From Lachnospiraceae bacterium (GTDB lineage: Bacteria > Bacillota > Clostridia > Lachnospirales > Lachnospiraceae): DNA of 45,974 nucleotides. Location of the stretch: contig BLMC01000018.1 in NCBI GenBank assembly GCA_011959805.1, positions 1-45,974 of the forward strand. Direction: 5' to 3'. Below the pieces are notes generated by a model, which did no database searches, was not told where the DNA came from, and was given only the letters and a program-made list of their open reading frames with translations. The translations under genes were made by a program, and so were the position numbers. This document shows, piece by piece, positions 207 through 45,728 of the stretch (position 1 is its first letter; every line of letters starts with the position of its first letter).

Positions 207-251
207 AAAAAAGCTTAGCAATATCTTTTTAAGATATTGCTAAGCTTTTTT
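207..251 (+). terminator. Intrinsic terminator after the histidine kinase
   Basis: A perfect 17-bp stem (AAGCTTAGCAATATCTT at 211-227 against 231-247) closes a TTT loop and is flanked by A-tract and T-tract, so it could terminate both strands. A short hairpin element begins directly at its T-tract. Confidence 0.9.
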
Positions 252-299
252 ATGCACACGGACGTGGAGAGGAACGATTAGCGAAAGCTGTCCGTGCGT
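251..299 (+). repeat. Terminator-abutting hairpin element, short form, copy 1
   Basis: The stretch starts TATGCACACGGAC at the terminator T-tract and ends GTCCGTGCG. CACGGAC (257-263) pairs with GTCCGTG (290-296). The interior AGAGGAAcGA..TAGCgAAAG resembles the element at 45667-45728, which also abuts a terminator. No coding potential is seen. Confidence 0.55.
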
Positions 300-364
300 T
301 TAGTAATTACAATATTCTTTTGTGCAAAGATTTTACTTATACATGTTGAAAAGGAGTAGGGAAA

Positions 365-2296
365 ATGAACATAGAAAAGGATCAGGACAGCAACAAAAAA
401 GAATCAGAGTTTAAGCCATATGTTCCAGCAAAGCAAGCACCTCCCGAACTGACTTTGACATCGGTGGTGATTGGAATCTTGCTGGCAGTTGTATTTGGCG
501 CTGCAAATGCCTATCTGGGACTGCGTGTAGGGATGACAGTATCCGCTTCTATTCCGGCAGCAGTTGTATCGATGGGAGTGCTGCGAATATTGCTGCGCAG
601 AAAATCTATTTTAGAAAGTAATATGGTACAGACCATTGGTTCGGCGGGAGAGTCGCTTGCAGCAGGTGCAATTTTTACAATGCCTGTGTTGTTTTTGTGG
701 GCAAAGGAAGGCGTTAGCAATCGTCCAGGAATGCTTTCTATCTCACTGACAGCTTTGCTTGGTGGGCTACTTGGGGTTCTGTTTATGGTTCCTCTGCGAA
801 ACGCATTGATTGTCAAGGAGCATGGTATACTTCCTTATCCTGAAGGGACAGCATGTGCAGAGGTTTTGCTTGCTGGGGAAAAAGGTGGCACGTCTGCGCG
901 GGCAGTTTTTGTTGGAATGGGTATTGCCGCGTTAATTAAGTTTGTCGTGGATGGCTTGAAGGTGGTTCCAAGTACAATTACAATGCGAATTCAGTCGCTT
1001 AAAACAGAGTTTTCTACGGAGATTTATCCAGCACTTGTGGGGGTAGGGTACATCTGTGGGGCAAAGATTTCCTCTTATCTTTTTGCGGGTGGCATTTTAG
1101 GTTGGTTTGTGTTAATACCAGCGATTGTGGCATTTGGTGAGGAGACAATTCTTTATCCCGGAACAGAACCGATTGTACAAATATTTTTGGAGGGGGGACC
1201 TAATGCGATTTGGAGTAATTATATTCGTTATATTGGTGCAGGTGCGGTCGCTGCAGGTGGCATTATCAGTTTAATAAAATCCCTTCCGTTAATTGCCACA
1301 ACTTTTCGGGATACTATGAAGGGATTAAAAGGTAACAGTGCAGATGGTGAGTCCAGAACAGAGCGCACAGCGCTGGATATTAATATGAAATTTGTTCTTG
1401 GTGCAATTGTATTAATTATCTTAGCAATCGCTATTTTTCCGGATATTCCAGTTTCCTTTTTGGGAGCGCTGTTAATTGCGGTGTTTGGTTTTTTCTTCTC
1501 CGCAGTGTCTTCAAGAATGGTGGGGCTTGTAGGAGGGAGCAACAATCCAGTTTCTGGCATGGCGATTGCGACACTTTTGTTTGCGACAATGGTACTCAAA
1601 TCAGCAGGTGATAGCGGAGTACATGGTATGACAGGCGCAATTGCAATTGGCTCTATTATTTGTATTATCGCTGCAATGTCAGGCGACACATCACAGGATT
1701 TAAAGACAGGGTATATCTTGGGAGCAACTCCAAAACGGCAGCAACTTGGAGAGTTGATTGGAGCATCCGTCTCAGCGGTCACCATTGGAGGTGTGATGCT
1801 TCTTTTGGATTCCGCTTGGGGGTTTGGCTCTACAGAACTTTCCGCGCCACAAGCAACTTTGATGAAAATGATTGTGGAAGGTGTGATGGACGGAAATTTG
1901 CCGTGGACGCTTGTGTGGATAGGGGTTTTTATTGCGGTTGTCATTGAAATATTTGGGGTTCCGGTACTTCCAGTAGCAATTGGATTGTATTTACCATTGA
2001 AGCTTTCTGTTCCTATTATGGCAGGCGGTTTGGTGCGGTATGCAGTAATCAAAAAAACTGCAAATACAGCAAAGGAAAGTGAGGCCGGAAGTGGTATTTT
2101 ATTTTGCTCTGGATTAATTGCAGGAGAAGGGCTTGTTGGGATTTTGTTAGCAGTGCTTTCTGTTGTCGGAGTGGCAGATGTCATTGATTTGTCGACAGTT
2201 TTTAATACAGGGATTGTCGGTGGGTTGATAATGCTCATATTAGCGGTAATTGCTGTATTATACTTTGGAATACTGAAAAACAGTAGCATTTCGTAA
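365..2296 (+). CDS. OPT-family oligopeptide transporter
   Basis: This 643-residue polytopic membrane protein of the oligopeptide transporter (OPT) family probably imports peptides or metal chelates with protons; the substrate cannot be read from sequence. The N-terminus (about residues 1-30) is hydrophilic and cytoplasmic, followed by the typical first helix with GAANAYLGLRVGMTVSASIP. The OPT signature NMVQTIGSAGESLAAGAIFTMP lies at about residues 87-108 and PYPEGTACAEVL at about 157-168. Many hydrophobic segments follow, to the last residues. Length is normal for bacterial members. AAGGAG at about 350-355 is well placed for the ATG at 365. The gene is single, between a terminator and the promoter of the first pullulanase gene. 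Adjacency to extracellular starch enzymes suggests a nutrient-acquisition neighbourhood, but a functional link is only inference. Confidence 0.9.
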   Translation: MNIEKDQDSNKKESEFKPYVPAKQAPPELTLTSVVIGILLAVVFGAANAYLGLRVGMTVSASIPAAVVSMGVLRILLRRKSILESNMVQTIGSAGESLAAGAIFTMPVLFLWAKEGVSNRPGMLSISLTALLGGLLGVLFMVPLRNALIVKEHGILPYPEGTACAEVLLAGEKGGTSARAVFVGMGIAALIKFVVDGLKVVPSTITMRIQSLKTEFSTEIYPALVGVGYICGAKISSYLFAGGILGWFVLIPAIVAFGEETILYPGTEPIVQIFLEGGPNAIWSNYIRYIGAGAVAAGGIISLIKSLPLIATTFRDTMKGLKGNSADGESRTERTALDINMKFVLGAIVLIILAIAIFPDIPVSFLGALLIAVFGFFFSAVSSRMVGLVGGSNNPVSGMAIATLLFATMVLKSAGDSGVHGMTGAIAIGSIICIIAAMSGDTSQDLKTGYILGATPKRQQLGELIGASVSAVTIGGVMLLLDSAWGFGSTELSAPQATLMKMIVEGVMDGNLPWTLVWIGVFIAVVIEIFGVPVLPVAIGLYLPLKLSVPIMAGGLVRYAVIKKTANTAKESEAGSGILFCSGLIAGEGLVGILLAVLSVVGVADVIDLSTVFNTGIVGGLIMLILAVIAVLYFGILKNSSIS

Positions 2297-2395
2297 GAAA
2301 CAAAAGCAGTATGCTCAAAAAATGTGCGTATTTAACCTTAAAAATAGTCAGAAATACTAAAATATAAGAATAAAAAAAGACATATTGCTGAATGT

Positions 2396-2413
2396 TTCGC
2401 GAAAGTTCGCGAA
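2396..2413. promoter_or_regulatory. Two tandem TTCGCGAA palindromes, possible operator
   Basis: The 8-bp palindrome TTCGCGAA occurs at 2396-2403 and again at 2406-2413, ten bases apart, or about one helical turn. It lies directly upstream of the -35 box of the first pullulanase gene. This is a plausible binding site for a dimeric regulator on one face of the DNA. The regulator is unknown. The paralogous gene downstream has only a half-match (TTCGCG near 12279). Confidence 0.4.
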
Positions 2414-2417
2414 TGTA

Positions 2418-2540: not shown

Positions 2541-5500
2541 ATGGAAAAAACAAACAAATTCTGTAGAAAGAAACGCAACGTAGCAAAAAGTATTCTCAGT
2601 CTAATCTTAGTTTTTGCTATGGTCATTTCCAATGTACAGATAGCGCCGGAAGCGTTTTCCACTGTATGGGCAGCGGAAAATGAGACAACGGAGACGAGTG
2701 AAGTCAGTGAAAGCAGCACACAAATTGCAGAGACAGATACAGAGCAGGATGAAGCTGGCCAAACGAGTGAGAGCAGTGGAGATGATAAGAATACTGGAAC
2801 AGATGAGACACAAAAATCAACTCAAGAAAGTGAAGTAGAAAGTTCTTCTCAGGATGAATCCGCTACGTCTGAAGAAACTGTTGAGACACAGACCGTCGAG
2901 ACAGAGATAGAAACACAGACAGAGCAGGAAAGCAAAACTGAAGAGACAAGTACAACAGAAATTAGTACAGAAAGCACTGAAACTTTGGAATCTTCAGAAA
3001 GTGTAGAGACAGAACAGACAACTGAAGAAACAGAACAGACAACCGAAGAGACAGGCATTGAAAAGAACGAAGGAGAAAGCGATCCCATCGAGGAACAGGT
3101 GGAGGTGATTCTACATTTTAGGAATTCCCTTGGATGGGATGAGGTTGCGGCATTTTTTGGAAAACACAATGGAACAGATTGGGATGGAGATGCGCTTAGT
3201 GGATCATGGCCAGGAAAAGGTGATCTTGTAGAAGACGAAAATGGATATTATACAATATCGCAAAAGATTTCCAAAACAAGCGGATTTGTAATTATTTTTA
3301 ACAACAATAATAATAAAAAGCAAACTACGGATATTATTATTTCATCAGAAGATTTTCAGAGCGATACCTATGAACGATGGATATGGTTAGTAAATGGAGT
3401 GTCCAAGTGGGAGGGAGATACTGAAAAATATTTTGCTCAAGCAGCTACATCAAAAGATATTGAGGTTGTCAGCCCAGAGATTGATGCTGATAAGAAAGTA
3501 TCCTTTCGCTACTTAAATGATTTTGCAAAATCAGTAAAAGTAGCAATGGGGACAAAGGGACTCGAATCTACTCCTGATGATTGGAAACAATATGAAATGA
3601 GTAAGGATGCAAATGGCGTCTTTACCTATACAACAGATATTACATTAACAGCAGGCGAATATCCATATAAGTTTATCGTAGATGGAAATTGGATTCGTGA
3701 TCCAAACAATGAATCATTTACGGATGATAATGACAAAAATAGTGTCTTTACGATTGAAGGAGAAGACCCAAACAAAATTGTAAGCCCTGAAGTCAACGGA
3801 AATAAAGTAACTTTCCGCTATAAAAACAGCGAGGCAAACAATGTATATGTGCGCGGACTTTTAATAAGTGATTGGGCAATTACAGAAGATTATAAGATGC
3901 AGAAAGACGAGGAAACTGGTGTTCATACACTGGAAGTTGAACTGCCTCATGGAAAACATGAATATAAATTTTTCTACAAAGACGCTGATGGAAAAGATTG
4001 TTGGGTACCTGACCCAAATGGTGTTCAAGTAGGTGGAAGTGACAGCAATAGTTATGTCTTTGTAACAGGAAGCAAAGAGTACGAATATACTATTCACTAC
4101 TACAATCCAGAAGCAGATATCCCAACAACAGCAGAGGGACCAGATTTACATATTTGGGGTAAGTGTTCGGAGGATTTGGTAGGAGATTATAAGTTTACAG
4201 AGATTACAAAGGACCCCAAAGCAGAAGGAAAAACATGGCTGACAATGAAAGTGACACTTCCTTATCCGCATTTGAATGTGATTGCACGACCAAACGGCGA
4301 TTGGGAAGAACAGGATAATGAGTACACATATGAAGTTCAAAGTGGCGATAAAGTAGAATTGTGGTATGTATACAAGAAGGGTATTTATGATAAAAATCCA
4401 TTCCTTGCATCTTATGAATATACGATTCATTATTTTAACCCTGATGTTCCTGATCAGTCCAGCAATCAGTCTGATTTATACATATGGGAACCTGGTACCA
4501 GTAATCCTGGCGGGGTATTTCCATTTGATGGAGGTCTGACTTATGATAACGATAATGATATTACATGGCTGACAGCTAAAGTTGGTGTTCCTTATACAAA
4601 TATAGGCATTATTGGGAAACCATATGCTGGAGAAGAAAATTGGGAAGATAAGGACAATGACAGAACATATCAATTAAGGGGTGAAGCAAAAGAGGCAGAA
4701 CTTTGGTATATTCACGGAGTAGGTGTTTATGACAAGAAGCCAAATCTAAATTTGGAATCAATAGAAGTTTTTTTACAATTGGATTCTATGAATTATACAC
4801 AGAACAATGTACTTACCATCATTGCAAATGGTGTTGAGAATTCTGATGTGTTGATAAAGAGTGCCTATGTGGACGCCTCTGAATTGGGTATTAGCGATAA
4901 ACTTGTGATTTCGCCAGAATTGCTCGCAGTATCGCTGTCAGTAAGAGATACCATAGAAGCAGGAACGTATGAACTGCCAGTTATAGTCACAGATATTCGT
5001 GGAAATCAGTTGGAGGCAACGACTACTGTGACCATTATAGACAAAGCAGAAAATCAGAATGATTTTGACTGGGATGAGGCTGTGATTTACTTTATGGTAA
5101 CAGACCGATTCTTTGACGGCAATGAGGGCAACAATACTGCAAATGGTACAGATGGTAATTATAATACTTATGGAAAAGATAATCAGGGATTATATCACGG
5201 CGGTGATTTTGCTGGTGTGACCGAGAAGTTGGATTACTTAAAAGAATTGGGAGTCAATACCATATGGATTACGCCAATTGTAGAGAATGTAAAGGGTGTT
5301 ACTGTTGGCGGAGAAGGCAAGGATAAGGTGCCATACTATGCCGGATATCACGGCTATTGGGCAAGTGATTTCACTAAGTTAAATCCTGCGCTTGGTACAG
5401 AGAAAGAATTTGAAACGTTAATTAATACTGCCCATAAAAAGGGTATGAAGATTATGGTTGACGTTGTGGTAAATCATGCAGGATATGGCATGGAAGGTAC

Positions 5501-8500
5501 CGATAAGTTTGCCGGTATGCTAAGGGACAGCAAGGACGTGGTGGAATCAGACCATGAACTTGGCGGATATCAGGCGGGATTACCCGACTTTCTCACAGAA
5601 ATTCCTGAAGTTAGAAATCAGATTATTAAATGGCAAGTAGACTGGGCAAAGAAAGGTGTGGATTATTTCCGCGTAGACACAGTACAACATGTAGACAGCA
5701 CGACATGGATGGCATTTAAGAATGCGCTGACAGAAGCCAATCCAAATTTCAAAATGATTGGTGAGTATTTTGGTGCAGGATATAATACTGCAAACGGTGG
5801 CAGGTTGGGAAGTGGACAAATGGATTCCTTACTTGACTTTAATTTTAATGAGTGGGCAACGGATTTTGTAAAAGGTGATATTTCATCAGTAGAAACCAAT
5901 CTAAAAAACCGAAATGAAGCACTCAATAATACCTATCTGACAGGACAGTTTCTAAGCAGCCATGACGAGAATGGATTTAAACAGGAACTAATTAACAAGG
6001 GTTGGAGTGCAGACGCGGCAGCGGCAGCTTCCTACGTAGCAGCAACACTTCAGATTACAGCAAAAGGTCAGCCAGTGATATATTATGGCGAGGAGATTGG
6101 ATTGTCTGGAAATAATGATTATCCCTATCAGACAAACCGATATGATTTTAACTGGAATGAGCTGGAAAAACAAAAATCGCAGGAAAGTAGTATTTATAAT
6201 CACTACAAGAAAATGCTTAAAATCCGAGATGATTATTCTGAAGTATTTGCAAAGGGTGACAGACAGGTTGTAACACAGTCCAACGCAAATGGGTATGATA
6301 TTGTTTCCAGAAGTTATGAGGACACAACACTTTATGTTGGAATGAATATCAAATCAGAGGCACAGACTTTAAAGTTTTCTGTGGACAAGGGCGTTACAGG
6401 CTACAAGGATTTGTACAGCGACAAAGTGTATCCGGTTGCAGCAGATAATACAATTGAGATAACAATTCCGGCAGCAGCAAGTGGCGGTACAGTTGTATTA
6501 GTGGCGGATTCTTATAAGGTAGGTTTGCTTGACCCTGAAATGACAATTGCAAGGGGAAGAGAATCAGCGCTGCCATTACAATTAGCAAAGCTGTCAGAGG
6601 AAGGTGTAAAGACTTTTGTAGATGTAACTTATTCTATGACATCTGTTGAAGGCGTGACACTTGACGACAAAAATAAAACGATAAAAGTTGCAGAAACATT
6701 TACAGGAAAGACAATTGAGTTGACTGCAACCGCAGGCAGTGACACAATAACATTTTTGATTAAGGTGGTAGAAGACAAAAACGAAATCACATTAAGGCTG
6801 CATTACAACAGACCTGACCAAAATTATGCAGGTTGGAATGTTTGGGCATGGGGCCATCAAAAAGATGCAGAAGTGGTTCAATTTACTTCTGATGATGAGG
6901 CTGGCGGAAAAGTAGCGGAAATCAAACTGGTAGAAGGGCGTAAAATCAGTACAATGAACTATATTATTCGCAAGAGTATTGATGGTAACGACTGGGCAGA
7001 AAAAGACCCAGGAATGGATTGCTATATTGATCTTTCCGATGTTCTTTCTGGTACTGTGGATTACTATGCGCAGTCTGGTCAATTCCCTGGAACCAGAGTG
7101 CTGGGGGATGATGTATTGACTGGTGCGAAAATTCGCTCTGCTACATATGACAGCACTAGAAATATAGTTAAGGTTGTCACAGGAGTTCCTATTATAGGCT
7201 CTCTTGATGGAATATTTGTACTAAAAACAAAACCAGAAAATAAAGAGGAAGAAGAAATAATCATTCCCATTACAGAGGTAAAACTTGTCAATGCAGAGAA
7301 AAATATATATGAATTAAGTCTTGAAGTGGATTTATCAAGCGCGGACGCAATGCAGAAAAAATATGTTCTTGCATATGATGGTTATGATTATGAGGTGACA
7401 GTATCGAATGATTATTCTTCTGATGAGTTTGAAAGTCGATACACTTATACAGGAAATGACCTTGGTGCAACATGGACTAGCAGCAAGACAACATTTAAGG
7501 TATGGGCACCTACAGCAGCAAAAGTACAGGTAAATCTGTATGAATCTGGAACAGAAAAAACAGAAGACTTAATTAAGACCTTAGACATGACAAAGGGCGA
7601 ACAAGGTGTGTGGTTCGTGTCAGAAGAAGGAGACTTGAATGGTACGTATTATACGTACAGCGTTACGGTAAATGGAATAACAACTGAAGCTTGTGACCCT
7701 TACGCAAAGACAACAGGTGTAAACGGTAATAGAGCAATGGTTATCAATATGAACGCTACCAATCCAGCAGGATGGGCAGGTGATCGTGGACCAAACGCAG
7801 GTATGAGCTACACCGATTCCATTATTTATGAGTTGCATGTCAGGGACTTCTCAATTGATGAATCTTCGGGAATTTCGGAGAAAAACAAAGGAAAGTTCTT
7901 AGGGCTTACAGAAACAGGAACCAAAAATAAGAATGGACAGACCACAGGTCTGGATTATTTGACAGACTTGGGTGTGACACACATTCATCTGTTGCCTTCA
8001 TATGATTATGCGACGGTGGATGAGACAAAGCTGGATACACCACAGTACAACTGGGGATATGACCCCAAAAATTACAATGTGCCCGAAGGGTCTTATTCGA
8101 CAGATCCTTATAATGGTGCAGTTCGTGTAAAAGAAATGAAACAGATGGTAAAAACACTGCATGACAATAATATTAACGTAATTATGGATGTGGTGTACAA
8201 CCATGTATATGATGCAGATAAATTTAGTTTTAACCAAATTGTACCCAAGTATTTTTCAAGAACGACGGAGAATGGTGGATATTCAAACGGTTCTGGATGC
8301 GGCAATGATACAGCATCTGAGCGCGCAATGGTAAGGAAATACATTGTGGATTCTGTAAATTATTGGGCAGATGAATATCATATCGACGGTTTCCGCTTTG
8401 ACTTAGTAGGATTACTTGATACAGAAACAATTAACGAAGTGGTTAATACTGTACATGAGAAGCATCCTGATGTTGTATTCTATGGCGAAGGTTGGACAAT

Positions 8501-11500
8501 GAATACAGAAGTCAGCAAAGACAACATTACAATGGCAACACAGACAAACTCAGCAAAAACGCCTAAATTTGCGTATTTTAGTGATACCATTCGCAATTTG
8601 TTAAAAGGAGATACTTTTAGTGAGACTTCCGTCGGATTTATTTCTGGTGCAACAGGGAAGGAAGATGACCTAGCCAAATGCTTTACAGCAACTCCTGACT
8701 GGTGTAAGAGTCCAACACAGACAATTAATTATGCGTCTTGTCATGACAATTATTCGCTTATGGATAAGTTGTATGTATCAAGGAACGATGCAAGTCGCGA
8801 AGATTTAGTGCGCATGAACAATCTCGCGGCAGTAATTTACATGACAGCAGAAGGAATTCCTTTGATTCATGCAGGTGAGGAGCTGTTAAGGGAAAAGATA
8901 GATGAGAATGGAAAACGTGTGGAGAACAGTTACAACGCATCTGACCTTGTAAACAGTATTAAATGGAGTAATCTTGACCAAGAGGAGTATCGAAATGTAA
9001 GAGATTACTATAAGGGATTAATTGCATTTCGTAAAAACCATGCTGCACTGCGTCTGACATCAGCGCGTGATGTCAGTGCCAATGTAAAATACAAGAAGAT
9101 TAGCGATCAGGTAGTTCTGTTCACAATTAACGGTAAGGACAGAGTACAAGGAGAAGTTTCTGATGGTATTGTGCTGATTTTTAATGCATCGACTTCTGAA
9201 AAAGAGATTAATTTATACAACAATAGTGGTATTACAAAAGGAGATTGGAATGTCTGCATCGATGATAAGAAAGCCGGCATTGAAACACTTTATACGATTA
9301 AAGATGGCAAAGTAACTGTAGCACCAATCTCTGCAATGGTTCTTGTAAAAGGAGAAGGTACGGATAACGATTCCATTTACGGTGATAATGAACAGCAAAA
9401 AATTGATCATCTCAGAGGCGAACTTCAAGATTTGATTGCTGCATATGAGCAATTGCAGAAGGCAGACTATACAAATGAGAGCTGGGCAGTCTTTACAGGT
9501 GCTCTGGAAGCGGCAAGGAAGGCAACAGCAGACCAGGCAGCAACACTTAGCACCTTGGGAAAAGCAAAAGAAAGTTTAATAACTGCTTATAATGCTTTGA
9601 AAGTGCCAGAAGGCAAAGTGGATAAAGAAAAGCTAAGAGTATTAATAGCGGTATGTCAAGCAGTTGTAAATCAGGACTATACAGTCGAAACTTGGACAGC
9701 ATTTGAAATAGCATTAGAGGCTGCAAAGAAGGCTTTGGAAGCACAGGATGTTAAGCAGGAAGATGTAAACAAGGTATATAACAAGTTGGAATCTGCTTAT
9801 AATGGGCTTACAAAACAGAAACCTGACTTAACAGAATTAAAGAATCTGATTGCAGAATATGAGAAACTGGAAAAAGGCAGTTACACAGACGAGAGCTGGG
9901 CAACGTTTACAGAAGCGTTGAAAACAGCAAAGGCAATTATTATAAAACCAGATGCTGGACAGAGCGAAGTAGACAGCGCAGTAGAAAATTTAGGCACAGC
10001 TTATAAAGAACTGAAAGTAATAGAAGGTGCTGTAGACACTGAAAAGTTAAGAGCACTGGTTTCCAGATGTAAAGAGATTCGTGCAAAAGGACAGGGGAAC
10101 TATACGGACGAAAGTTGGGCAATGTTTACAAGTTTACTGAAGGGAGCTGAAGCTGTTTTATGGAAACAAAATGTCAAGCAGAATGAAATTGACGAGGCAT
10201 ATAAAAAGTTAAATGATGCGCGCAATAACCTTTCAGAGATTCATAAAGGACTTTGGATAAAGTGGGATAAGAAATCTGGATTAAAGCTTGGCCAAGATGG
10301 AGAGTACCATATTACCTATACTGGCAAGGCACTTAAGCCAGCAATTCTGGTATTTGATAGAGAGACACAATTAAAGGAAAAAACAGATTATACAGTAAGT
10401 TATAGAAATAATACAAATGCCAGCAATCAGGCGCAAGTGATTATTAAGGGCAAGGGAAATTATTCATTGTCGCGCACAATAAACTTTACAATCGACAAAG
10501 TGGATATCAAAGACCTTGATATAGCAGACTTGTACACCCCTATAACAGCAACAAATAGTAAACAGATTGTACCAAAACCAGTAGTGAAGTATAATGGCAA
10601 AACGCTGAAACTCAATAAAGACTATACGGCCTCTTATGAAAACGCTGGTGATGGAATAAACATAGGTGCATATACTGTAAACTTGGTTGCAGATCAAAAC
10701 AGTATAAATTTTGAGGGTAAGACTACTATTAAGATGATACTTGTAGATAAGGCAAGTGTAACCTTAATGAGTAAGGCAACAATCAAAAAGATTCCAGCAC
10801 AGAATTACAAAAATGGAGAAGTAATAAAGCCTGACATTATAGTCACTTACAAAGGTCAAACGCTCAAAGAGGGTACACACTATAACGTGGAATATGACAA
10901 AGCTCATACCCAAGCTGGGGAGACGGCAACTATAACAATCAAGGGAATTCTTGGCACAGATTTTAAGAGCGGATTTGCGGGAGAGAAGACAGTTTCGTTT
11001 AAGATTAATGGAACACCGCTAAAAGCAAATATGGTATCTTTCCAGGATGAAAGCGTTGCAAAAGTAGGTCTAGTTTATACAGGAATGCCACAACAACCAG
11101 CAATAAAAGTTAATACACCAGATGCAGGAAAGTATAAAATAGAATATCAGAACAATATTAATGCTGGCAAAGCAACAGTAATTGTAACCGGCAGAAATGG
11201 GTATTCAGGAACGGTAAAGAAAACTTTTAAGATAACACCGTTTGATATTGCTACGAATTTCGAAAATAATTTTACATATGCATCGGAAATATCTATTCCT
11301 TATGCAAAAGGTGGTGCGAAGCTTTCTGACAACGATATAATGGCATGTTTTAATGTAAAAAAAGGCAATGGTTCTTCTGTGAGAGTAGACCAACTAGCGC
11401 AAGGAAAAGACTTTACCTTAACTTATAAGAAGAATACAACAGCAAAGTCACCAGATGCCAAGTTTAGTATTAAAGGCAAAGGTAATTTTAAAGGAACCAT

Positions 11501-12056
11501 TAAGGACATTCCTTTTGAAATCACACAGCAGAATCTGAGTCAATTGCAGATTACAACAGCAGACTTAATAGACACAAAAGCAAAGAACTATAATAAAGTC
11601 ATTCCTGTAATTACGGATTTGAATGGTAAAAAACTTAAAAATAAGACAGATTTTGCAGTGGTTAATTATGCTTACGGAGACAATCAGACTTCTGGAAATC
11701 CAGTTGCAGGAACAACAGTTACCATCACAGTAGAGGGAACAGGTGTTAATTATACGACCGAAAAGATTACAACAGAGTTTAGAGTGATTGCTAAGGATAA
11801 AGATATTGCAAAGGCAACGATAAAGATAAATAATGGTAATCCATATATTTATACTGGAAATGCAATCGAACCCAATAAAAATGATATTGACATTTGTTTT
11901 AATGGAGGATCCCCTCTAAAGGAAAATGATTATGAAATCATTAGTTACACCAACAATATAAAAAAAGGTACTGCAAAACTGACTATACATGGTCTTGGTG
12001 AGTACGGTGGAACAAAAACAGTAACTTATAAAATAATAGCACAACCAATGAGCTGA
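2541..12056 (+). CDS. Giant secreted bifunctional alpha-amylase/pullulanase (amylopullulanase)
   Basis: This 3171-residue extracellular enzyme should cut alpha-1,4 and alpha-1,6 bonds in starch, pullulan or glycogen. Order seen: signal peptide (1 to about 45, ending VWAAE); acidic Ser/Thr/Glu linker (46-185); CBM26-like module (about 187-295, WPG..., FNNN); two CBM48-like folds (about 310-500); two CBM41-like modules (about 510-740); Ig-like domain; GH13 alpha-amylase (841-1324). The amylase has DVVVNH at 974-979, nucleophile D1046 (FRVDT), acid/base E1075 and D1142 (SSHDE). After a linker come a second CBM41 (about 1415-1515) and CBM48 (about 1636), then type I pullulanase (about 1757-2274). 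That domain has YNWGYDP at 1836-1842, D1954 (GFRFDL), E1983 (YGEGW) and D2069 (CHDN). Four FIVAR modules (2287-2567) and seven Ig-like repeats end the protein. There is no LPxTG or SLH motif. AAGGAAGG precedes the ATG. Confidence 0.93.
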   Translation: MEKTNKFCRKKRNVAKSILSLILVFAMVISNVQIAPEAFSTVWAAENETTETSEVSESSTQIAETDTEQDEAGQTSESSGDDKNTGTDETQKSTQESEVESSSQDESATSEETVETQTVETEIETQTEQESKTEETSTTEISTESTETLESSESVETEQTTEETEQTTEETGIEKNEGESDPIEEQVEVILHFRNSLGWDEVAAFFGKHNGTDWDGDALSGSWPGKGDLVEDENGYYTISQKISKTSGFVIIFNNNNNKKQTTDIIISSEDFQSDTYERWIWLVNGVSKWEGDTEKYFAQAATSKDIEVVSPEIDADKKVSFRYLNDFAKSVKVAMGTKGLESTPDDWKQYEMSKDANGVFTYTTDITLTAGEYPYKFIVDGNWIRDPNNESFTDDNDKNSVFTIEGEDPNKIVSPEVNGNKVTFRYKNSEANNVYVRGLLISDWAITEDYKMQKDEETGVHTLEVELPHGKHEYKFFYKDADGKDCWVPDPNGVQVGGSDSNSYVFVTGSKEYEYTIHYYNPEADIPTTAEGPDLHIWGKCSEDLVGDYKFTEITKDPKAEGKTWLTMKVTLPYPHLNVIARPNGDWEEQDNEYTYEVQSGDKVELWYVYKKGIYDKNPFLASYEYTIHYFNPDVPDQSSNQSDLYIWEPGTSNPGGVFPFDGGLTYDNDNDITWLTAKVGVPYTNIGIIGKPYAGEENWEDKDNDRTYQLRGEAKEAELWYIHGVGVYDKKPNLNLESIEVFLQLDSMNYTQNNVLTIIANGVENSDVLIKSAYVDASELGISDKLVISPELLAVSLSVRDTIEAGTYELPVIVTDIRGNQLEATTTVTIIDKAENQNDFDWDEAVIYFMVTDRFFDGNEGNNTANGTDGNYNTYGKDNQGLYHGGDFAGVTEKLDYLKELGVNTIWITPIVENVKGVTVGGEGKDKVPYYAGYHGYWASDFTKLNPALGTEKEFETLINTAHKKGMKIMVDVVVNHAGYGMEGTDKFAGMLRDSKDVVESDHELGGYQAGLPDFLTEIPEVRNQIIKWQVDWAKKGVDYFRVDTVQHVDSTTWMAFKNALTEANPNFKMIGEYFGAGYNTANGGRLGSGQMDSLLDFNFNEWATDFVKGDISSVETNLKNRNEALNNTYLTGQFLSSHDENGFKQELINKGWSADAAAAASYVAATLQITAKGQPVIYYGEEIGLSGNNDYPYQTNRYDFNWNELEKQKSQESSIYNHYKKMLKIRDDYSEVFAKGDRQVVTQSNANGYDIVSRSYEDTTLYVGMNIKSEAQTLKFSVDKGVTGYKDLYSDKVYPVAADNTIEITIPAAASGGTVVLVADSYKVGLLDPEMTIARGRESALPLQLAKLSEEGVKTFVDVTYSMTSVEGVTLDDKNKTIKVAETFTGKTIELTATAGSDTITFLIKVVEDKNEITLRLHYNRPDQNYAGWNVWAWGHQKDAEVVQFTSDDEAGGKVAEIKLVEGRKISTMNYIIRKSIDGNDWAEKDPGMDCYIDLSDVLSGTVDYYAQSGQFPGTRVLGDDVLTGAKIRSATYDSTRNIVKVVTGVPIIGSLDGIFVLKTKPENKEEEEIIIPITEVKLVNAEKNIYELSLEVDLSSADAMQKKYVLAYDGYDYEVTVSNDYSSDEFESRYTYTGNDLGATWTSSKTTFKVWAPTAAKVQVNLYESGTEKTEDLIKTLDMTKGEQGVWFVSEEGDLNGTYYTYSVTVNGITTEACDPYAKTTGVNGNRAMVINMNATNPAGWAGDRGPNAGMSYTDSIIYELHVRDFSIDESSGISEKNKGKFLGLTETGTKNKNGQTTGLDYLTDLGVTHIHLLPSYDYATVDETKLDTPQYNWGYDPKNYNVPEGSYSTDPYNGAVRVKEMKQMVKTLHDNNINVIMDVVYNHVYDADKFSFNQIVPKYFSRTTENGGYSNGSGCGNDTASERAMVRKYIVDSVNYWADEYHIDGFRFDLVGLLDTETINEVVNTVHEKHPDVVFYGEGWTMNTEVSKDNITMATQTNSAKTPKFAYFSDTIRNLLKGDTFSETSVGFISGATGKEDDLAKCFTATPDWCKSPTQTINYASCHDNYSLMDKLYVSRNDASREDLVRMNNLAAVIYMTAEGIPLIHAGEELLREKIDENGKRVENSYNASDLVNSIKWSNLDQEEYRNVRDYYKGLIAFRKNHAALRLTSARDVSANVKYKKISDQVVLFTINGKDRVQGEVSDGIVLIFNASTSEKEINLYNNSGITKGDWNVCIDDKKAGIETLYTIKDGKVTVAPISAMVLVKGEGTDNDSIYGDNEQQKIDHLRGELQDLIAAYEQLQKADYTNESWAVFTGALEAARKATADQAATLSTLGKAKESLITAYNALKVPEGKVDKEKLRVLIAVCQAVVNQDYTVETWTAFEIALEAAKKALEAQDVKQEDVNKVYNKLESAYNGLTKQKPDLTELKNLIAEYEKLEKGSYTDESWATFTEALKTAKAIIIKPDAGQSEVDSAVENLGTAYKELKVIEGAVDTEKLRALVSRCKEIRAKGQGNYTDESWAMFTSLLKGAEAVLWKQNVKQNEIDEAYKKLNDARNNLSEIHKGLWIKWDKKSGLKLGQDGEYHITYTGKALKPAILVFDRETQLKEKTDYTVSYRNNTNASNQAQVIIKGKGNYSLSRTINFTIDKVDIKDLDIADLYTPITATNSKQIVPKPVVKYNGKTLKLNKDYTASYENAGDGINIGAYTVNLVADQNSINFEGKTTIKMILVDKASVTLMSKATIKKIPAQNYKNGEVIKPDIIVTYKGQTLKEGTHYNVEYDKAHTQAGETATITIKGILGTDFKSGFAGEKTVSFKINGTPLKANMVSFQDESVAKVGLVYTGMPQQPAIKVNTPDAGKYKIEYQNNINAGKATVIVTGRNGYSGTVKKTFKITPFDIATNFENNFTYASEISIPYAKGGAKLSDNDIMACFNVKKGNGSSVRVDQLAQGKDFTLTYKKNTTAKSPDAKFSIKGKGNFKGTIKDIPFEITQQNLSQLQITTADLIDTKAKNYNKVIPVITDLNGKKLKNKTDFAVVNYAYGDNQTSGNPVAGTTVTITVEGTGVNYTTEKITTEFRVIAKDKDIAKATIKINNGNPYIYTGNAIEPNKNDIDICFNGGSPLKENDYEIISYTNNIKKGTAKLTIHGLGEYGGTKTVTYKIIAQPMS

Positions 12057-12060
12057 CAAC

Positions 12061-12147
12061 CGAGTAGGGAAGATTTTCCCTACTTGCGCGCCGGGCATCC
12101 GTCAGCTTCTGCTGGCAAATTTCACTTAGACACCCGTGTGCATAATA
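12061..12147 (-). repeat. Terminator-abutting hairpin element, long form, copy A
   Basis: Read on the minus strand this begins TTATGCACACGG and ends with a stem-loop. AGTAGGGAA (12063-12071) pairs perfectly with TTCCCTACT (12076-12084), and GTCAGC (12101-12106) pairs with GCTGGC (12111-12116). It aligns end to end with 32190-32277 and, less well, with 20056-20139. It lies between the pullulanase stop codon and its terminator. Confidence 0.65.
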
Positions 12148-12183
12148 AGCCCCATACCAGATTTCTTTCCGGTATGGGGTTTA
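12148..12183 (+). terminator. Intrinsic terminator after the first pullulanase gene
   Basis: GCCCCATACC pairs with GGTATGGGGT around a 12-base loop and is followed by TT and preceded by AA. The T-tract is short, but the stem is strong. It separates the two giant genes, so each is probably transcribed on its own. Confidence 0.7.
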
Positions 12184-19958: not shown

Positions 19959-20055
19959 TTTCCATTTGTCGGATGTCCTACTTTATATAAGCAGAAAACA
20001 GCTACATTAGCAAAGAATAGATAATTCGACTGCATGGTGAGAATAATTTCTAAAT

Positions 20056-20139
20056 CGAGTAGAGAAGATTTTATTCTATTTATGTATTGGATTTTCGTCA
20101 GCTTGCTGACATATTTTATTTGGACATCTATATGCGTAA
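20056..20139 (-). repeat. Terminator-abutting hairpin element, long form, degenerate copy B
   Basis: On the minus strand this reads TTACGCATATAGATGTCC..., keeping the GTCAGC/GCTGAC stem (around 20098-20111) and a terminal AGTAGAGAA motif in register with copies A and C. It lies between the stop of the second pullulanase gene and its terminator, the same position as copy A after the first. Confidence 0.55.
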
Positions 20140-20181
20140 AATAAATTCCTCTAGGTGGATATGCCTAGGGGAATTTATTTT
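20138..20181 (+). terminator. Bidirectional intrinsic terminator after the second pullulanase gene
   Basis: An 18-bp stem (20138-20155 against 20164-20181, one G-U type mismatch, CTCTAGG/CCTAGGGG core) has an 8-base loop, with A-rich and T-rich flanks in the stem itself. Confidence 0.85.
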
Positions 20182-20255
20182 ATGTGCACGCCACAACAAG
20201 CCAATGGTATTCTTGAAATGTTGTTAGAACAGCGTAAATTTACAGAGAGAAATAG

Positions 20256-23986: not shown

Positions 23987-24178
23987 TAGTGTGAAATTAA
24001 GATTTCACCCATCCTGATTAGTACGCCCGCCAAAGCGGGCAGATGGGAGTTAGTGTGAAATTAAGATTTCACCCATCCTGATTAGTATGCCCGCCAAAGC
24101 GGGCAGATGGGAGTTAGTGTGAAATTAAGATTTCACCCCTCCTGATTAGTACGCCCGTCAAAGCGGGCAGATGGGAGT
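23987..24178. repeat. Three 64-bp tandem repeats, each with two nested hairpins
   Basis: Units begin at 23987, 24051 and 24115, with a 7-base partial fourth (TAGCGTG) at 24179. Each unit has GTGAAAT-taag-ATTTCAC followed by CCCATC...GCCCGC-caaa-GCGGGC-a-GATGGG, a nested stem. Units 1 and 2 differ by one base in 64 (24024/24088). Unit 3 has changes in the outer stem (CCCCTC) and inner stem (GCCCGT). No reading frame or known element explains it. It lies between the tRNA promoter and the promoter of the next gene. Confidence 0.85.
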
Positions 24179-24318
24179 TAGCGTGCTCAAATAAAAATAT
24201 AGCATAAATGGATTGAATGTTTGATTAATGGATTTGGGAGGTTTATTGTATTGAAAACTTTAAAAATCTAGTGCCAATATAATTATATTTTATATAGAAA
24301 ATACAATTCAAGAATTAC

Positions 24319-30939: not shown

Positions 30940-31048
30940 TTCTATAAGGCGGACGTTCATCATCAAAGAAGTCGCCAGCGAAGACTTCATATTATTGGTG
31001 AAAATGTACATTCTGGCGGTTTATGAATGACGTGGCTGGACTGTAACA
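30932..31048 (+). repeat. Left arm of a ~115-bp inverted repeat around the mraY-like gene
   Basis: The sequence from ACAATTAATTCTATA to GGACTGTAACA aligns with the reverse complement of 32347-32462 over its whole length. I judge about three quarters of bases identical by eye, with AATTAATTCTATA, GCGGACG, AAGTCGCCAGC and TGGTnAAAATG shared. An internal stem (GTCGCCAG with CTGGCGG) is preserved. It overlaps the last codons of the ABC gene. Confidence 0.75.
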
Positions 31049-31197: not shown

Positions 31198-32163
31198 ATG
31201 ATAAATAAAATTCTGGATGTATCAGATTATGCGATTTTGGGTTTTGTGGGTGTAGCCTTCGCATATCTGCTGACCAGCTATCTGTTGGCGGTTGGAATGA
31301 ATAAACTCCCTAGAGATCATGGGCGGGAATTTGCCCATGACGGTGGTCTTTCCGCAGGCAAACCACGCGGTGCAGGATTTGTCTTTATCCTTGTCTTTGT
31401 ATTGGCTGCATTTATATTTGGCAATGTGGATAGAGAGATGGTAATTTATTTGATATTGACTGTTTCTGCAATGATGACAGGGTATCTGGACGATTGTGCA
31501 AAGGTGTCTTGGGGAGAATTGCGCAAAGGGCTTTTGGATCTTGTAATTGCAGTTATGACAGCAATTACAATGGTCAATTTTAATGGAAGTAATGTTACAA
31601 TTGCGTTGACTGGGCAGGTGATTGCACTTCCGCCTTTGTTATATGGTGCGCTTGCTGTTATTTTAGTATGGGGTTCTATCAATGTGACAAATTGTGCGGA
31701 CGGTGTGGATGGTTTGTCGGGCACATTGACAAGTATCACACTGTTTACAATCTATATGATTATGAGTAGGACAGGAGCAGCACCAGAATTTTCTTATATG
31801 ATTTTGTTGTTTATTGCATGTATTTTAGGATATCTGTGGTTTAATGCGACACCAAGTCGTCTTTTAATGGGGGATGCTGGTTCGCGGGCGATGGGACTTT
31901 TTATAGCAGTCTCTATTATGAAGACAGGAAGACCATTTTTGTATTTGCTAGTGGCGTTAGTGCTTATGGTAGATGGTGGAATTGGTCTTGTGAAAGTTTC
32001 GTTGCTGCGCTTTTTGAAAATTAAAATTCTTACCAAAATACGTACACCGCTACACGACCATGTGCGCAAAAATCTGGGTTGGTCCAATGCGCAGACAGTA
32101 TTTAAGTTTGCAATTATTCAGATTATGATATCGGTGGCAGTGGTATGGCTTACTGTGTTTTAG
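31198..32163 (+). CDS. MraY/WecA-like phosphosugar-lipid transferase, divergent
   Basis: This 321-residue polytopic enzyme of the glycosyltransferase 4 family transfers a phospho-sugar from a UDP-sugar to undecaprenyl phosphate. MraY landmarks: GYLDDCAKV with D98-D99; NVTNCADGVDGLSG (about 161-174, corresponding to N..N.TDG.DGL but with Ala for Thr); LLMGDAGSRAMG with D226; and PLHDHVRKNLGW with H286-D287-H288 where MraY has HHH. The C-terminal GWSNAQTVFKF also resembles MraY (KGW.E..VV.RF). It is not in a dcw cluster, so it is probably a second, non-essential MraY-like enzyme for another wall polymer, or an alternative peptidoglycan route. AAAAGGAG precedes the ATG. It stands alone between long inverted repeats. 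Confidence 0.8.
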   Translation: MINKILDVSDYAILGFVGVAFAYLLTSYLLAVGMNKLPRDHGREFAHDGGLSAGKPRGAGFVFILVFVLAAFIFGNVDREMVIYLILTVSAMMTGYLDDCAKVSWGELRKGLLDLVIAVMTAITMVNFNGSNVTIALTGQVIALPPLLYGALAVILVWGSINVTNCADGVDGLSGTLTSITLFTIYMIMSRTGAAPEFSYMILLFIACILGYLWFNATPSRLLMGDAGSRAMGLFIAVSIMKTGRPFLYLLVALVLMVDGGIGLVKVSLLRFLKIKILTKIRTPLHDHVRKNLGWSNAQTVFKFAIIQIMISVAVVWLTVF

Positions 32164-32187
32164 AGCTGTTGTTGACAGCTCTTTTTC
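32162..32187 (+). terminator. Intrinsic terminator of the mraY-like gene
   Basis: AGAGCTGT (32162-32169) pairs with ACAGCTCT (32175-32182) over TGTTG and is followed by TTTTTCTTT. Confidence 0.85.
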
Positions 32188-32189
32188 TT

Positions 32190-32277
32190 TATGCACACGG
32201 ACACCCAAGTGCAATTTGTCAGTAGAAGCTGACGGGTACCCAGCGCGCAAATAGGGGAAGATAAATCTTCTCTACTT
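32190..32277 (+). repeat. Terminator-abutting hairpin element, long form, copy C
   Basis: This reads TATGCACACGGACACCC from the terminator T-tract, then GTCAGtagaaGCTGAC, GCGCGCAA and an AGATaaATCT-type stem ending CTCTACTT. It is colinear with the reverse complement of copy A. A further related stretch (TTGCACACAGAAAAG..., with CCCGCG/CGCGGG stem) continues to about 32346. Confidence 0.65.
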
Positions 32278-32346
32278 AATTGCACACAGAAAAGTAATAT
32301 GCAGAAAAGAGCAGCCCGCGTCCAGCGCGGGAGTAGGGAGAATTGT

Positions 32347-32462
32347 GTAACAGTTCAGTCATATCATTTATAAGTCACCAGAGTGTGCATTTTGACCAAT
32401 GATATTTGATTTTTGCTGGCGACTTATTTCATGAAGGGCGTCCGCTCTATAGAATTAATTGT
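32347..32462 (-). repeat. Right arm of the ~115-bp inverted repeat
   Basis: This is the reverse-complement partner of 30932-31048. An internal 12-bp stem, ATAAGTCACCAG (32370-32381) against CTGGCGACTTAT, has one G-U type pair; the left arm keeps the stem despite base changes. It lies between the hairpin elements and the trmB promoter. Confidence 0.75.
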
Positions 32463-32634
32463 ACAAATTGTCTTTCGTGAGCAAACTTACACGTACAATT
32501 TACAAAATTGTATACAATTGTGCAAAAAAATTGAATTTTATAAAAATTTGGTGAAATTTATATGTGACAAATATAAACAATAGGTGTACAATAATATCGG
32601 ACAATATGGTAAAAATTAGAAGGGAAATATAGAA
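32463..32634 (+). promoter_or_regulatory. AT-rich leader and probable promoter of trmB-mrp operon
   Basis: Several overlapping TACAATT/AATTGTA palindromic motifs lie at about 32460-32525 (for example ACAATT...AATTGTATACAATTGT). A plausible promoter follows: GTGACA near 32563 and TACAAT near 32587. Exact transcription start is uncertain. Confidence 0.35.
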
Positions 32635-42883: not shown

Positions 42884-42938
42884 AAAGTTACCAGATTATT
42901 CGAGAGAAATTATCTTTGGAATTGTCTGGTAATTTTTT
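42884..42938 (+). terminator. Intrinsic terminator of the trmB-mrp operon
   Basis: TTACCAGA (42888-42895) pairs with TCTGGTAA (42925-42932) enclosing a long A/T-rich loop with possible extra pairing, followed by six Ts. Confidence 0.7.
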
Positions 42939-43052
42939 GTGCACAGAAAATAGCATTATATAGCGCTGCGGCGGGAAGCTTTCCCTATTAGATTGCAAAC
43001 AGTATCTACAGGAAGACTGCGATAGATGTTCGTCGCGCAAGTAGGTTTTTTT
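42936..43052 (+). repeat. Terminator-abutting hairpin element, divergent copy D
   Basis: This begins TTTGTGCACAGAAAATAGC at the terminator T-tract and ends CTGCGATAGATGTTCGTCGCGCAAGTAGG, similar to the GACGG.TGCCCGGCGCGCAAGTAGGG end of copy A. The start also matches TTGCACACAGAAAAG at about 32281. Weaker than copies A to C. Confidence 0.4.
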
Positions 43053-43074
43053 GGTTGGATTACGAATTAAAAAC

Positions 43075-43523: not shown

Positions 43524-43556
43524 AACATAAATTCAAATGGAAAGGAGAAGTATGAT

Positions 43557-44840: not shown

Positions 44841-44985
44841 GTTGTCTATGTAATTTTTGCCAATGAGTGACTTTTGTTTGACGTTAAAAAGTTTTAACCG
44901 TATAATTGGAAACGGAAAAGATTGATATAATAAAAGATTAAATGACAAAAAACTTTTTAGGTTACAAAAGGAAGGAGTTTGCAAA

Positions 44986-45621
44986 ATGTTAAAAAAGATT
45001 TTGGGGGGAATCTGTTGTTTTTTGGCGATTGGAGGAGTTCTTGCAATTGCTTCTGATACAAGTACAGAATCTGCAACTGTGAACATAGGAATTAGTATTT
45101 TCTTCATTATTATCGCTATTCTTTTCTTTACGAGTGATAAACGTAAGGAGAAACGCCAAAGAAGGAAAGAAGATTGGTATGCCAGCTATAACGAAGCAAT
45201 AAAAACATGCACAATGAAACATATAAATGGTCTGCCTATTGCTGAAAATATGGATTGTAAAATTACTGCAATGGATGATAAATTTATGTTTTCGTCTGGC
45301 ACTATGAATTTTGAGTTGGAAAAATCAAAGATAACAGATATGTGTATTCGTACAGACCAGGAAATAGAAGAGCAATATGTTTCCTCTATTGGCGGTGCTG
45401 TTGGTGGCGCTGTTTTATTCGGGCCTTTAGGAGCAATGATAGGAGGAAGAGCCAAAAAGAAGACTGTTAAGAATGAAATTCACAATTACTTAATTATTAC
45501 TTACCAATCACCGGACATAAAATATATTGGTTTTGAGATAGACCGTAGCTTAGCATCTGCGGAGGCATATGTAAATGATTTTAAGAATAGAAATGTTATA
45601 GCAGGAACTTACCAACTATAG
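44986..45621 (+). CDS. Membrane protein of unknown function with glycine-zipper segment
   Basis: A 211-residue protein has two N-terminal membrane helices (ILGGICCFLAIGGVLAIA, about 5-22; NIGISIFFIIIAILFF, about 33-48). A basic stretch (KRKEKRQRRKEDW) follows, then a beta-rich domain. Near residues 133-155 the segment SSIGGAVGGAVLFGPLGAMIGGRAKKK is glycine-zipper-like. The layout resembles small proteins with a PH-like domain interrupted by a glycine-rich hairpin, but I cannot name the family. GAAGGAG precedes the ATG. It is monocistronic, closed by a strong terminator. Confidence 0.7.
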   Translation: MLKKILGGICCFLAIGGVLAIASDTSTESATVNIGISIFFIIIAILFFTSDKRKEKRQRRKEDWYASYNEAIKTCTMKHINGLPIAENMDCKITAMDDKFMFSSGTMNFELEKSKITDMCIRTDQEIEEQYVSSIGGAVGGAVLFGPLGAMIGGRAKKKTVKNEIHNYLIITYQSPDIKYIGFEIDRSLASAEAYVNDFKNRNVIAGTYQL

Positions 45622-45634
45622 AATGCTAATAATT

Positions 45635-45668
45635 AACCCCCTAACAGTTATAATTGTTAGGGGGTTTT
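45635..45668 (+). terminator. Intrinsic terminator, bidirectional
   Basis: AACCCCCTAACA (45635-45646) pairs perfectly with TGTTAGGGGGTT (45655-45666), followed by TT and preceded by AATT. Confidence 0.92.
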
Positions 45669-45728
45669 ATGCGCAGACCCGTGTAGAGGAAAGAAGTCGC
45701 TAAAGTGACACACAGGTCGCGCGCATAA
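45667..45728 (+). repeat. Terminator-abutting hairpin element, short form, copy 2
   Basis: The element is bounded by TTATGCGC (45667-45674) and its exact complement GCGCATAA (45721-45728). Inner pairs are GACC/GGTC and GTGT/ACAC, and the loop AGAGGAAAGAAGTCGCTAAAG resembles that of 251-299. It starts on the terminator T-tract. Confidence 0.6.

Follow-up and report, generated by a model that had tools for sequence, protein, structure and literature searches.

Some eukaryotic SINEs carry a 3' tail that copies the tail of a LINE, and many short, palindromic, intergenic and non-autonomous copies are formed by REP, BIME and REPIN sequences with RAYT and by the miniature elements derived from IS200/IS605. 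Group IIC (class C) introns have been described as inserting at intrinsic terminators (PMC4424553; PMC3898094), and a stem-loop followed by TTTTTTAT is given as a IIC mobility substrate (PMC7161350). Group II introns without an ORF are portrayed as rare in bacteria, where introns have been identified via the reverse transcriptase (RT) gene or domain V (PMC4424553), and elements without RT and domain V would therefore be missed by identification of the kind described there. The group III introns of Euglena chloroplasts, about 90-120 nt long and described as having a domain-VI motif without domain V, are believed to need factors supplied in trans (PMC4424553).

The window, i.e., the whole stretch of 45,974 nt from a Lachnospiraceae bacterium that was analysed, contains several units of a folded repeat. 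We regard these units as probably non-autonomous, SINE-like elements and infer that group IIC introns mobilize them in trans, a reading to which a probability of roughly 0.57 is assigned. Like group IIC introns, the units lie behind intrinsic terminators and end in a 3' domain-VI hairpin with CCTACTCGATT, and in two genomes of the genus (G007 and G034) intron and unit share a slot; the units differ in their length of about 90 nt, in lacking the D1-D5 core and the reverse transcriptase, in a branch-point position that is paired instead of bulged, and in a hairpin with an 11-nt bulge that replaces the core. With the Euglena group III introns, as far as that source describes them, they share a size of about 90 nt (some units are shorter, 79 nt) and a domain-VI motif without domain V, whereas those introns lie within genes and are removed from the mRNA, the units lie behind terminators, and hairpin 1 of the unit corresponds to no known DI. 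The likeness to eukaryotic SINEs lies in short, non-autonomous copies that join an unrelated head to the tail of a resident retroelement and have a common target preference, the difference being that the units are bacterial and would have a group II intron as their partner. The REP/BIME/REPIN and IS200/IS605-derived miniature elements are likewise numerous, short, palindromic, intergenic and non-autonomous, but the units have no consistently linked Y1 gene and show terminator targeting, a group II intron tail and array polarity. No title naming such elements has been found by word searches of the open-licence literature.

A full unit consists of GCACAC, a bulged hairpin 1 that carries the 11-nt bulge, GCGCGC, and hairpin 2 with the end CCTACTCGATT, and its length is about 79-106 nt (86-106 in A1, 79-106 in A2). 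The family of structured intergenic elements proposed in the preliminary description has proved to be real, as the covariance model R1, built from 27 copies, matches 137 units in the genome to which the window belongs and recognizes units in 33 of 38 genomes of the genus (0 to 106 copies each among the matches listed). Many copies are decayed. Across the family the stems covary strongly, with 96.3% of cells paired and changes on both sides in 17 of 26 pairs, a level reached in 0 of 500 shuffles. GCACAC and GATT, at the two ends of the family, do not form an inverted repeat, and a classical DDE-type MITE has been rejected for want of terminal inverted repeats. No recurrent target-site duplication has been seen by eye among 134 flanks, where T-tracts blur the count (e.g., at C196), and the flanks inspected hold no clear case of a 5'-truncated copy. 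A gene that travels with the units or is linked to them has been looked for by an all-against-all comparison of 830 flanking ORFs, which has revealed no recurrent transposase; its largest cluster, from 10 loci, is on our reading the translated repeat itself. Among known RNA families, only a T-box and a weak RAGATH-18 match have been obtained in eight loci at E<=1. Several copies sit at contig ends, so that the repeat family may help to fragment metagenome assemblies.

The window holds the following features, with scores from R1, whose alignment already contained units 2 and 4 (94.0 and 90.8 bits) and their kin.

206..252, plus strand: terminator hairpin with T-tract 5' of unit 1, a 22-nt perfect inverted repeat read from the sequence
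250..299, plus strand: unit 1, by eye a remnant with hairpin 1 only (exact 12-mer; R1 13.5 bits, E 0.19, span 250-332)
12150..12179, minus strand: terminator-like hairpin 5' of unit 2, stem of 12 pairs, listed as terminator-like on the minus strand
12058..12145, minus strand: unit 2, two hairpins (R1 94.0 bits)
20140..20182, minus strand: terminator-like hairpin 5' of unit 3, read from the sequence by eye
20053..20139, minus strand: unit 3, decayed, first bases TTAC (R1 58.1 bits; fold z 0.12)
32163..32188, plus strand: terminator-like hairpin with T-tract 5' of unit 4, by eye; the G060 ortholog is a hairpin without a unit
32189..32281, plus strand: unit 4, two hairpins (R1 90.8 bits)
32282..32341, plus strand: follow-on remnant left by an older unit, in one array with unit 4, by eye, without a model match
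42936..43052, plus strand: probable decayed array of two units, by eye only
45638..45669, plus strand: terminator hairpin with T-tract 5' of unit 5, by eye
45667..45750, plus strand: unit 5, intact hairpin 1 and decayed hairpin 2 (R1 48.5 bits; fold z of 45667-45728 is -4.88)

Six copies had been named in the preliminary description, and a T-tract is indeed visible beside all six. Four of them score strongly in R1, while the copy at 250 reaches only 13.5 bits (E 0.19) and that at 42936-43052 gives no match at E<=1, its fold not exceeding shuffles (z +0.96). The claim that pairing is mostly kept holds family-wide but not for the copy at 20056 (z 0.12), nor clearly for that at 251 (z -1.08), and the short form, previously set apart as a class, is most plausibly a unit that retains hairpin 1 and whose hairpin 2 has decayed or disappeared. 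In the remnant at 32282..32341, GCACACAG... follows immediately 3' of AATT, and CAGCCCGCGTCC and GGGAGTAGGGAG are also present. The exact 12-mer TTATGCACACGG occurs three times in the window (250 plus, 12134 minus, 32189 plus); with up to 3 mismatches it is found 42 times in the window against 36.15 expected, no excess over chance, and therefore the 12-mer alone is no proof inside the window. Across the whole genome, TTATGCACACGG with at most 1 mismatch is found at 88 places, compared with 4 for the reversed pattern. A search of the window for known RNA families at gathering level has returned only a tRNA.

The position of the units has been assessed from a flank table of 134 of the 137 matches (C21, C44 and C70 left out), from which 7 whose upstream sequence was too short and 15 follow-on units were subtracted to give 112 leading units; removal of two partial 26.1-bit matches left the 110 used for the TTAT count and the final terminator counts. 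By a home-made terminator detector, a hairpin and T-tract lie directly 5' of 88 of the 110 leading units with loops of up to 14 (78 of 112 with loops of up to 9), compared with 62 of 2000 random positions; 483 of 2200 shuffles with the tail kept also pass, as do 18 of the 110 TTTTAT sites of the window. The opposite unit end adjoins such a structure in 0 of 106 cases. The units lie on the terminator's strand, the T-tract before them usually ends in TTAT, and TTAT stands immediately 5' of 80 of the 110 leading units. One unit follows the terminator of a T-box leader. Where units stand in tandem, the higher-scoring one adjoins the terminator in 11 of 12 pairs; better upkeep beside the terminator could be an alternative cause of the falling score along arrays.

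Orthologous terminators in related species are either empty or occupied by a different unit, from which it follows that the units are insertions. This comparison is based on 26 sites of the own genome (4 + 22), of which nine were used and 17 set aside because of no match, no comparable terminator or difficult reading. The window's own site has no unit in G060 and another unit in G016. TTAC or TTAT is already present at two empty orthologous sites (L169 and L174/L175) and absent at the more distant empty site L307. Between the close relatives G016 and G060, 19 G016 sites were queried, two of them without a match in G060; the same unit is present at 11 of the 17 compared sites and at least one site differs. 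At L182 the G060 match reaches a contig end and a model match lies at the expected place on another G060 contig, L189 is occupied by a divergent unit, and L180, L183, L186 and L192 match poorly. Faster evolution of the units than of their flanks was considered and rejected, identity at the 11 sites being 98.4% compared with 98.6% upstream and 97.0% downstream. The earlier suggestion of miniature mobile elements that target terminator T-tracts thus gains support from the empty and refilled orthologous terminators, from the T-box leader case and from the array polarity.

Hairpin 2 and its tail CCTACTCGATT correspond to domain VI and the 3' terminus of IIC-type group II introns that lie behind terminators in this genus. 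All six introns located by one type of domain V end in CCTACTCGATT with at most 1 mismatch, and four introns with another domain V contain it with 3-5 mismatches at best. At the same tolerance of 1 mismatch, the 11-mer CCTACTCGATT occurs in 74 of 130 units, and among the 91,926 positions of the window it has only 2 matches, both in units. The 5' strand of domain VI differs, being GAGTAGG in units and GAGAGG in introns. All 10 genus introns leave the A at position -8, counted from the 3' end, without a pairing partner, compared with 1 of 32 units, so the bulged branch-point A of domain VI is not a property of the units, and position -8 is G in 7 of these 32. In G007 and G034 an intron lies between terminator and unit, i.e., in an array slot, and G034 also has introns with a deleted RT and kept 3' ends; strict TTAT is not common to the genus introns. 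A link to group II introns was absent from the preliminary description.

The core and the protein of such introns are missing from the units themselves. The window contains no group II family, and hence no D1-D5 ribozyme core, at gathering level; the unit-bearing loci L004, L013, L028, L032, L033 and L061 contain none at E<=1, and no intron-encoded reverse transcriptase is present in units of about 90 nt. The RF02001 core has not been found in the own genome and is absent from 9 of the 21 genomes with at least 10 units, including G010 with 49 units and G060, which is 98% complete and has 100. The other 12 of these 21 genomes have a core, as do 6 of the 17 with fewer units (one core is below cut-off; Fisher p 0.21), and core presence tracks unit load weakly (Spearman 0.25, p 0.12); the cores of G016 and G032 are fragments within the sequence examined. 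The single RVT_1 match of the own genome, next to a DNA methyltransferase, looks by eye like that of a retron and has been set aside as a mobiliser, and RVT_1 has been dropped as a correlate of unit load (16/21 compared with 10/17, p 0.31). Hairpin 1 has no demonstrated homology to any intron domain; its derivation from the RT-binding domain IVa has been rejected, as three folds near the RT start are no better than shuffles. No intermediate between an intron remnant of about 500 nt and a unit of about 90 nt has been found.

According to the proposed mechanism, unit RNA would be made through read-through of the terminator and would enter the ribonucleoprotein of a group IIC intron via the domain-VI-like tail, with hairpin 1 perhaps binding the intron protein. 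Reverse splicing and reverse transcription would then bring the RNA into terminator DNA, with the ribozyme core and the reverse transcriptase provided in trans by the intron. Each unit would behave as a SINE does when its tail is a copy of its LINE's. A linear pathway is more likely than a lariat pathway, because almost every unit has its branch-point position paired and some have G there.

Since unit load tracks introns weakly and Y1 at least as well, the main rival is an HUH (Y1) transposase that moves the units as DNA, which we consider unlikely. The units would then be non-autonomous IS200/IS605 derivatives or REP-like elements with hairpins at both termini, which would insert in single-stranded form 3' of TTAY without target duplication, their intron-like tail being due to convergence or borrowing. 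Hairpins at both ends and the oriented insertion beside TTAT/TTAC agree with this, the latter fitting the target habits of IS200/IS605, as does the TTAC or TTAT that pre-exists at two empty orthologous sites. Y1_Tnp is found in 20 of 38 genus genomes and at three places in the own genome; with 14 of 21 unit-rich genomes (at least 10 units) positive compared with 6 of 17 others (p 0.10; Spearman 0.36, p 0.026), it is a slightly closer correlate of unit load than the intron core. However, no Y1 (Pfam) is detected in G006, G013, G015, G034, G061, G030 and G005, which have 53, 47, 39, 33, 33, 26 and 24 units, a unit lies near only 1 of 31 Y1 loci (L061) within the stretch examined, and both the terminator preference and the domain-VI-like tail are left unexplained.

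A still less probable reading sees in the units mere fossils, which arose from group IIC introns by internal deletion, spread in the past and are now decaying and immobile. The decay of many copies, the shared units at 11 of 17 sites in G016 and G060 and the RT-deleted introns of G034 with kept 3' ends speak for it; the site or sites that differ between these two relatives, the missing intermediate and the stem covariation over many classes, which requires selection while spreading, speak against it. Host RNA structures at transcript 3' ends, retained for stability or termination, are the least credible explanation and a very improbable one. Strong covariation and the adjoining terminators would suit them, but the units are located past the T-tract, one stands behind a T-box leader terminator, orthologous genes have no unit or one of another class, and the genomes of the genus range from 0 to 106 copies among the matches listed. 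The conserved host 3'-end structures offered as the other option in the preliminary description are therefore not needed, because occupancy varies by species and distal copies score lower.

Returning to mobilization by group IIC introns, its most specific form, held tentatively and at slightly less than even odds, describes bacterial SINE-like parasites of group II introns: RNAs of about 90 nt in which a domain-VI tail is joined to a folded head unrelated to it, which would use the IIC ribozyme and RT in trans, invade terminators by dozens, form time-ordered arrays, and be a counterpart of the Euglena group III introns. However the units move, repeats that mark terminators are of use in annotation. 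If the trans-mobilization is true, a SINE/LINE relationship would exist in bacteria, with a group II intron derivative reduced below the ribozyme core and yet present in more than 100 copies, and bacteria would offer a test of group II ribozymes acting in trans, which is presumed to have been a stage on the way to spliceosomal introns.

The intergenic repeats of this contig belong, with near certainty, to a mobile family that invades transcription terminators. Alignment of 27 unit copies from the own genome (4.25 Mb, 431 contigs, 86.5% complete, in which the window is contig C18) has revealed a common architecture of TTAT, GCACAC, hairpin 1, GCGCGC, hairpin 2 and GATT. Hairpin 1 consists of an outer stem (~9 pairs) and an inner stem (5-6 pairs), parted on the 5' side by a bulge of ~11 nt, and a small loop, and hairpin 2 reads GAGTAGG...CCTACTC. 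The shape of hairpin 1 is constant while its sequence falls into varying classes, namely (a) GGGCACCC/GTCAGC, (b) GGACGCGG/GCAGC and (c) GACCCGTG/GCCGC. The preliminary description had claimed that stem pairing is mostly kept despite base changes, and covariation backs this pairing both within the own genome (92.8% of cells paired, both-side changes in 13 of 24 pairs) and, more strongly, across species (96.3%, 17 of 26 pairs; 32 sequences, 29 of them from other genomes and 3 own). The cross-species covariation score of 0.380 compares with 0.146 for shuffles and ≤0.117 for slid structures, the latter comparison being flattered as the structures were derived from the same sequences.

The exact 12-mer TTATGCACACGG, present at three of the places in the window named in the preliminary description, occurs genome-wide at 30 exact and 58 one-mismatch places, and its reversed pattern at 4. 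BLAST with one unit copy as query has returned 47 matches at E≤10, and the covariance model R1, built from the 27 copies, at least 137 places in the own genome at E≤0.01, from 150 scored candidates. Extended to the genus, R1 matches 33 of 38 genomes at E≤1e-4, with 0 to at least 106 matches per genome (112 candidates scored in each); in other families of the same order, a single match has been obtained in one of 24 genomes. The exact 20-nt repeat core has been found on two contigs of a named-genome collection from which own-genome records are possibly excluded, both titled Lachnospiraceae, and has no match among viral contigs.

Abutment on terminators, likewise claimed beforehand, is borne out by counting: a hairpin plus T-tract precedes 88 of 110 own-genome units that head an array and have upstream sequence (flanks from 134 places), vs 62 of 2000 random positions and 483 of 2200 shuffles retaining the last nine bases. 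A stricter detector has found a terminator before 78 of 112 leading units (47 of 2000 random positions) and at the 3' end of 0 of 106 units. Across 29 other genomes, a hairpin plus T-tract precedes 22 of 29 units vs 79 of 2900 random positions. TTAT lies directly before 80 of 110 leading units, and 96 of the 110 continue with G. Because one unit stands behind a T-box leader terminator (87.4 bits, below Rfam's 93, E 4e-18) and others follow tRNA-like sequence, recognized by eye at loci L048 and L073, it is terminators as such, not gene ends, that are preferred. At L092 and L093 (genomes G023 and G021), a unit at 1501-1579 occupies apparently the same place in two species, has no T-tract and lies upstream of a gene reading like an ATP synthase subunit.

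Units also form arrays, a second one starting directly after the 3' end of 38 of 108 leading units, whereas other offsets average 1.2. Follow-on units have no TTAT, the junction being GATT|GCACAC, and the terminator-proximal unit has the higher R1 score in all adjacent pairs but the one at C117 (11 of 12). Repeated insertion into one TTAT slot, each newer unit displacing the older outward, would produce this pattern. By eye, the terminator at L291 (G060), downstream of a matched gene, reads as bidirectional and has a unit on each side, in forward orientation at the T-tract and in reverse at the A-tract.

Mobility, also proposed in the preliminary description, is upheld by orthologous terminators that are empty or carry another unit. 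The window unit at 32189 sits behind a Glycos_transf_4 gene; at the orthologous site, G060 has a terminator without a unit and G016 a different unit. The site at a U32-like gene is empty in both genomes, where the terminator sequence differs and the right flank matches. Different unit classes occupy orthologous terminators behind an Rqc2-like gene and at C127, C5:16735 and C196, and unit-free sites occur in G015, G007 or G016/G060 for an ldh-like gene, C127, C9:45295 and C16 (the U32-, Rqc2- and ldh-like names are what we take these genes to be from their sequence alone). The close relatives G016 and G060 share the same unit at 11 of 17 compared G016 sites, and therefore most such insertions are older than their split. 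In both (L263/L264), the ortholog of C16:27227 has TTATGCAC between the terminator and unrelated sequence, perhaps a scar left where a unit was lost. Further features of the window are as follows.

2541-12056 and 12408-19958: adjacent giant proteins, both with alpha-amylase, CBM48, pullulanase-associated and FIVAR domains; each gene has a minus-strand unit just past its 3' end
23987-24185: three tandem copies of a unit spaced at 64 nt, with the topology of hairpin 1
30929-31048 and 32346-32465: 120-nt inverted pair (78%) on both sides of the Glycos_transf_4 gene

The 23987-24185 repeat has an outer stem CCCATC/GATGGG, a 5' bulge, an inner GCCCGC-CAAA-GCGGGC and a GTGAAATT/AATTTCAC hairpin; it scores 16.4 bits with R1 (E 0.03), similar sequence adjoins units at C57, C15 and C5:19598 by eye, and it is possibly a second, related family. 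The inverted pair appears by eye to be part of another repeat family (GTAACAGTTCAG...), with similar sequence in L167, L294, L297 and L311.

Among 51 loci with Y1 transposases or reverse transcriptases (RT), R1 matches four, the Y1 locus L061 and the RT loci L244, L245 and L246, and in L244 and L246 the match is the 3' end of a group II intron itself. These introns match group-II-D1D4-3, D1D4-1 or Intron_gpII in Rfam, and we have named them group IIC because they lie at terminators and resemble the literature description of class C. A terminator has been detected before 9 of 12 intron 5' junctions examined, and the literature describes IIC insertion at intrinsic terminators (PMC4424553), a DNA hairpin, for example that of a terminator, substituting for IBS2 alongside short IBS1 and IBS3 (PMC3898094), and a mobility-assay target of stem-loop, TTTTTTAT and poly-dT (PMC7161350). 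All six introns found via one domain V type end in CCTACTCGATT with ≤1 mismatch, and four with another domain V differ from it by 3-5 mismatches at best. A list of ten introns that was gathered in part by means of this tail is not independent. The 11-mer is exact in 34 of 130 own units and within one mismatch in 74; in the window, two of 91,926 positions match at ≤1 mismatch, both of them units. The pattern GTGTGAGAGG...CCTACTCGATT has matched 50 viral contigs, with group II families in 7 of 9 loci scanned. In G007, two units (68.4 and 44.1 bits) come after an intron whose start lies at the T-tract of a terminator and whose end reads CCCCTACTTGATT|GCGCAGACCCG; in G034, the intron is RT-deleted, stands behind a tRNA terminator and ends CCTATTCGATT|GCAGACCTG, the unit after it being weaker (21.7 bits); and in G032, a hairpin-2-like stem ending CTCGAT precedes an intron fragment. 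These observations argue strongly for a relationship between the unit tail and group IIC introns. Also in G034, the introns at L315 and L333 stand behind terminators and lack much of the RT region while keeping the 3' end, and are intermediate-size and non-autonomous.

Units as group II introns in their own right have been rejected, ribozyme core, RT and bulged A each having been tested and not found. Eight bases from the 3' end, all 10 genus introns carry an unpaired A, whereas in the units this position is unpaired in 1 of 32 and G in 7 of 32, which makes lariat formation by the units improbable. Euglena group III introns, according to PMC4424553, measure about 90-120 nt, have no domain V and sometimes only DI and DVI motifs.

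Mobilization in trans by IIC introns is the best explanation of the units, at somewhat better than even odds (about 0.57). The presence data single out neither this mobilizer nor a Y1 (HUH) transposase: in those of the 38 genomes with ≥10 units and with fewer, respectively, the core occurs in 12/21 and 6/17 (Fisher p 0.21), Y1_Tnp in 14/21 and 6/17 (p 0.10) and RVT_1 in 16/21 and 10/17 (p 0.31). Rank correlation with unit load is stronger for Y1_Tnp (0.36, p 0.026) than for the core (0.25, p 0.12), but Y1_Tnp is unmatched in seven genomes holding 24 to 53 units, and mobilization by Y1 accounts for neither the terminator preference nor the intron-like tail. No intron core has been found in G060 (100 units, 98% complete) or in the own genome, whose sole RVT_1 match reads as retron-like; that fragmented assemblies readily lose introns, and that units may persist longer than introns do, is an excuse for such genomes, not evidence. 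By eye, a retron-like reverse transcriptase adjoins an adenine-type DNA methyltransferase at C12:17940-18479 (L387) of the own genome. The units look like a SINE partnered with a group II intron.
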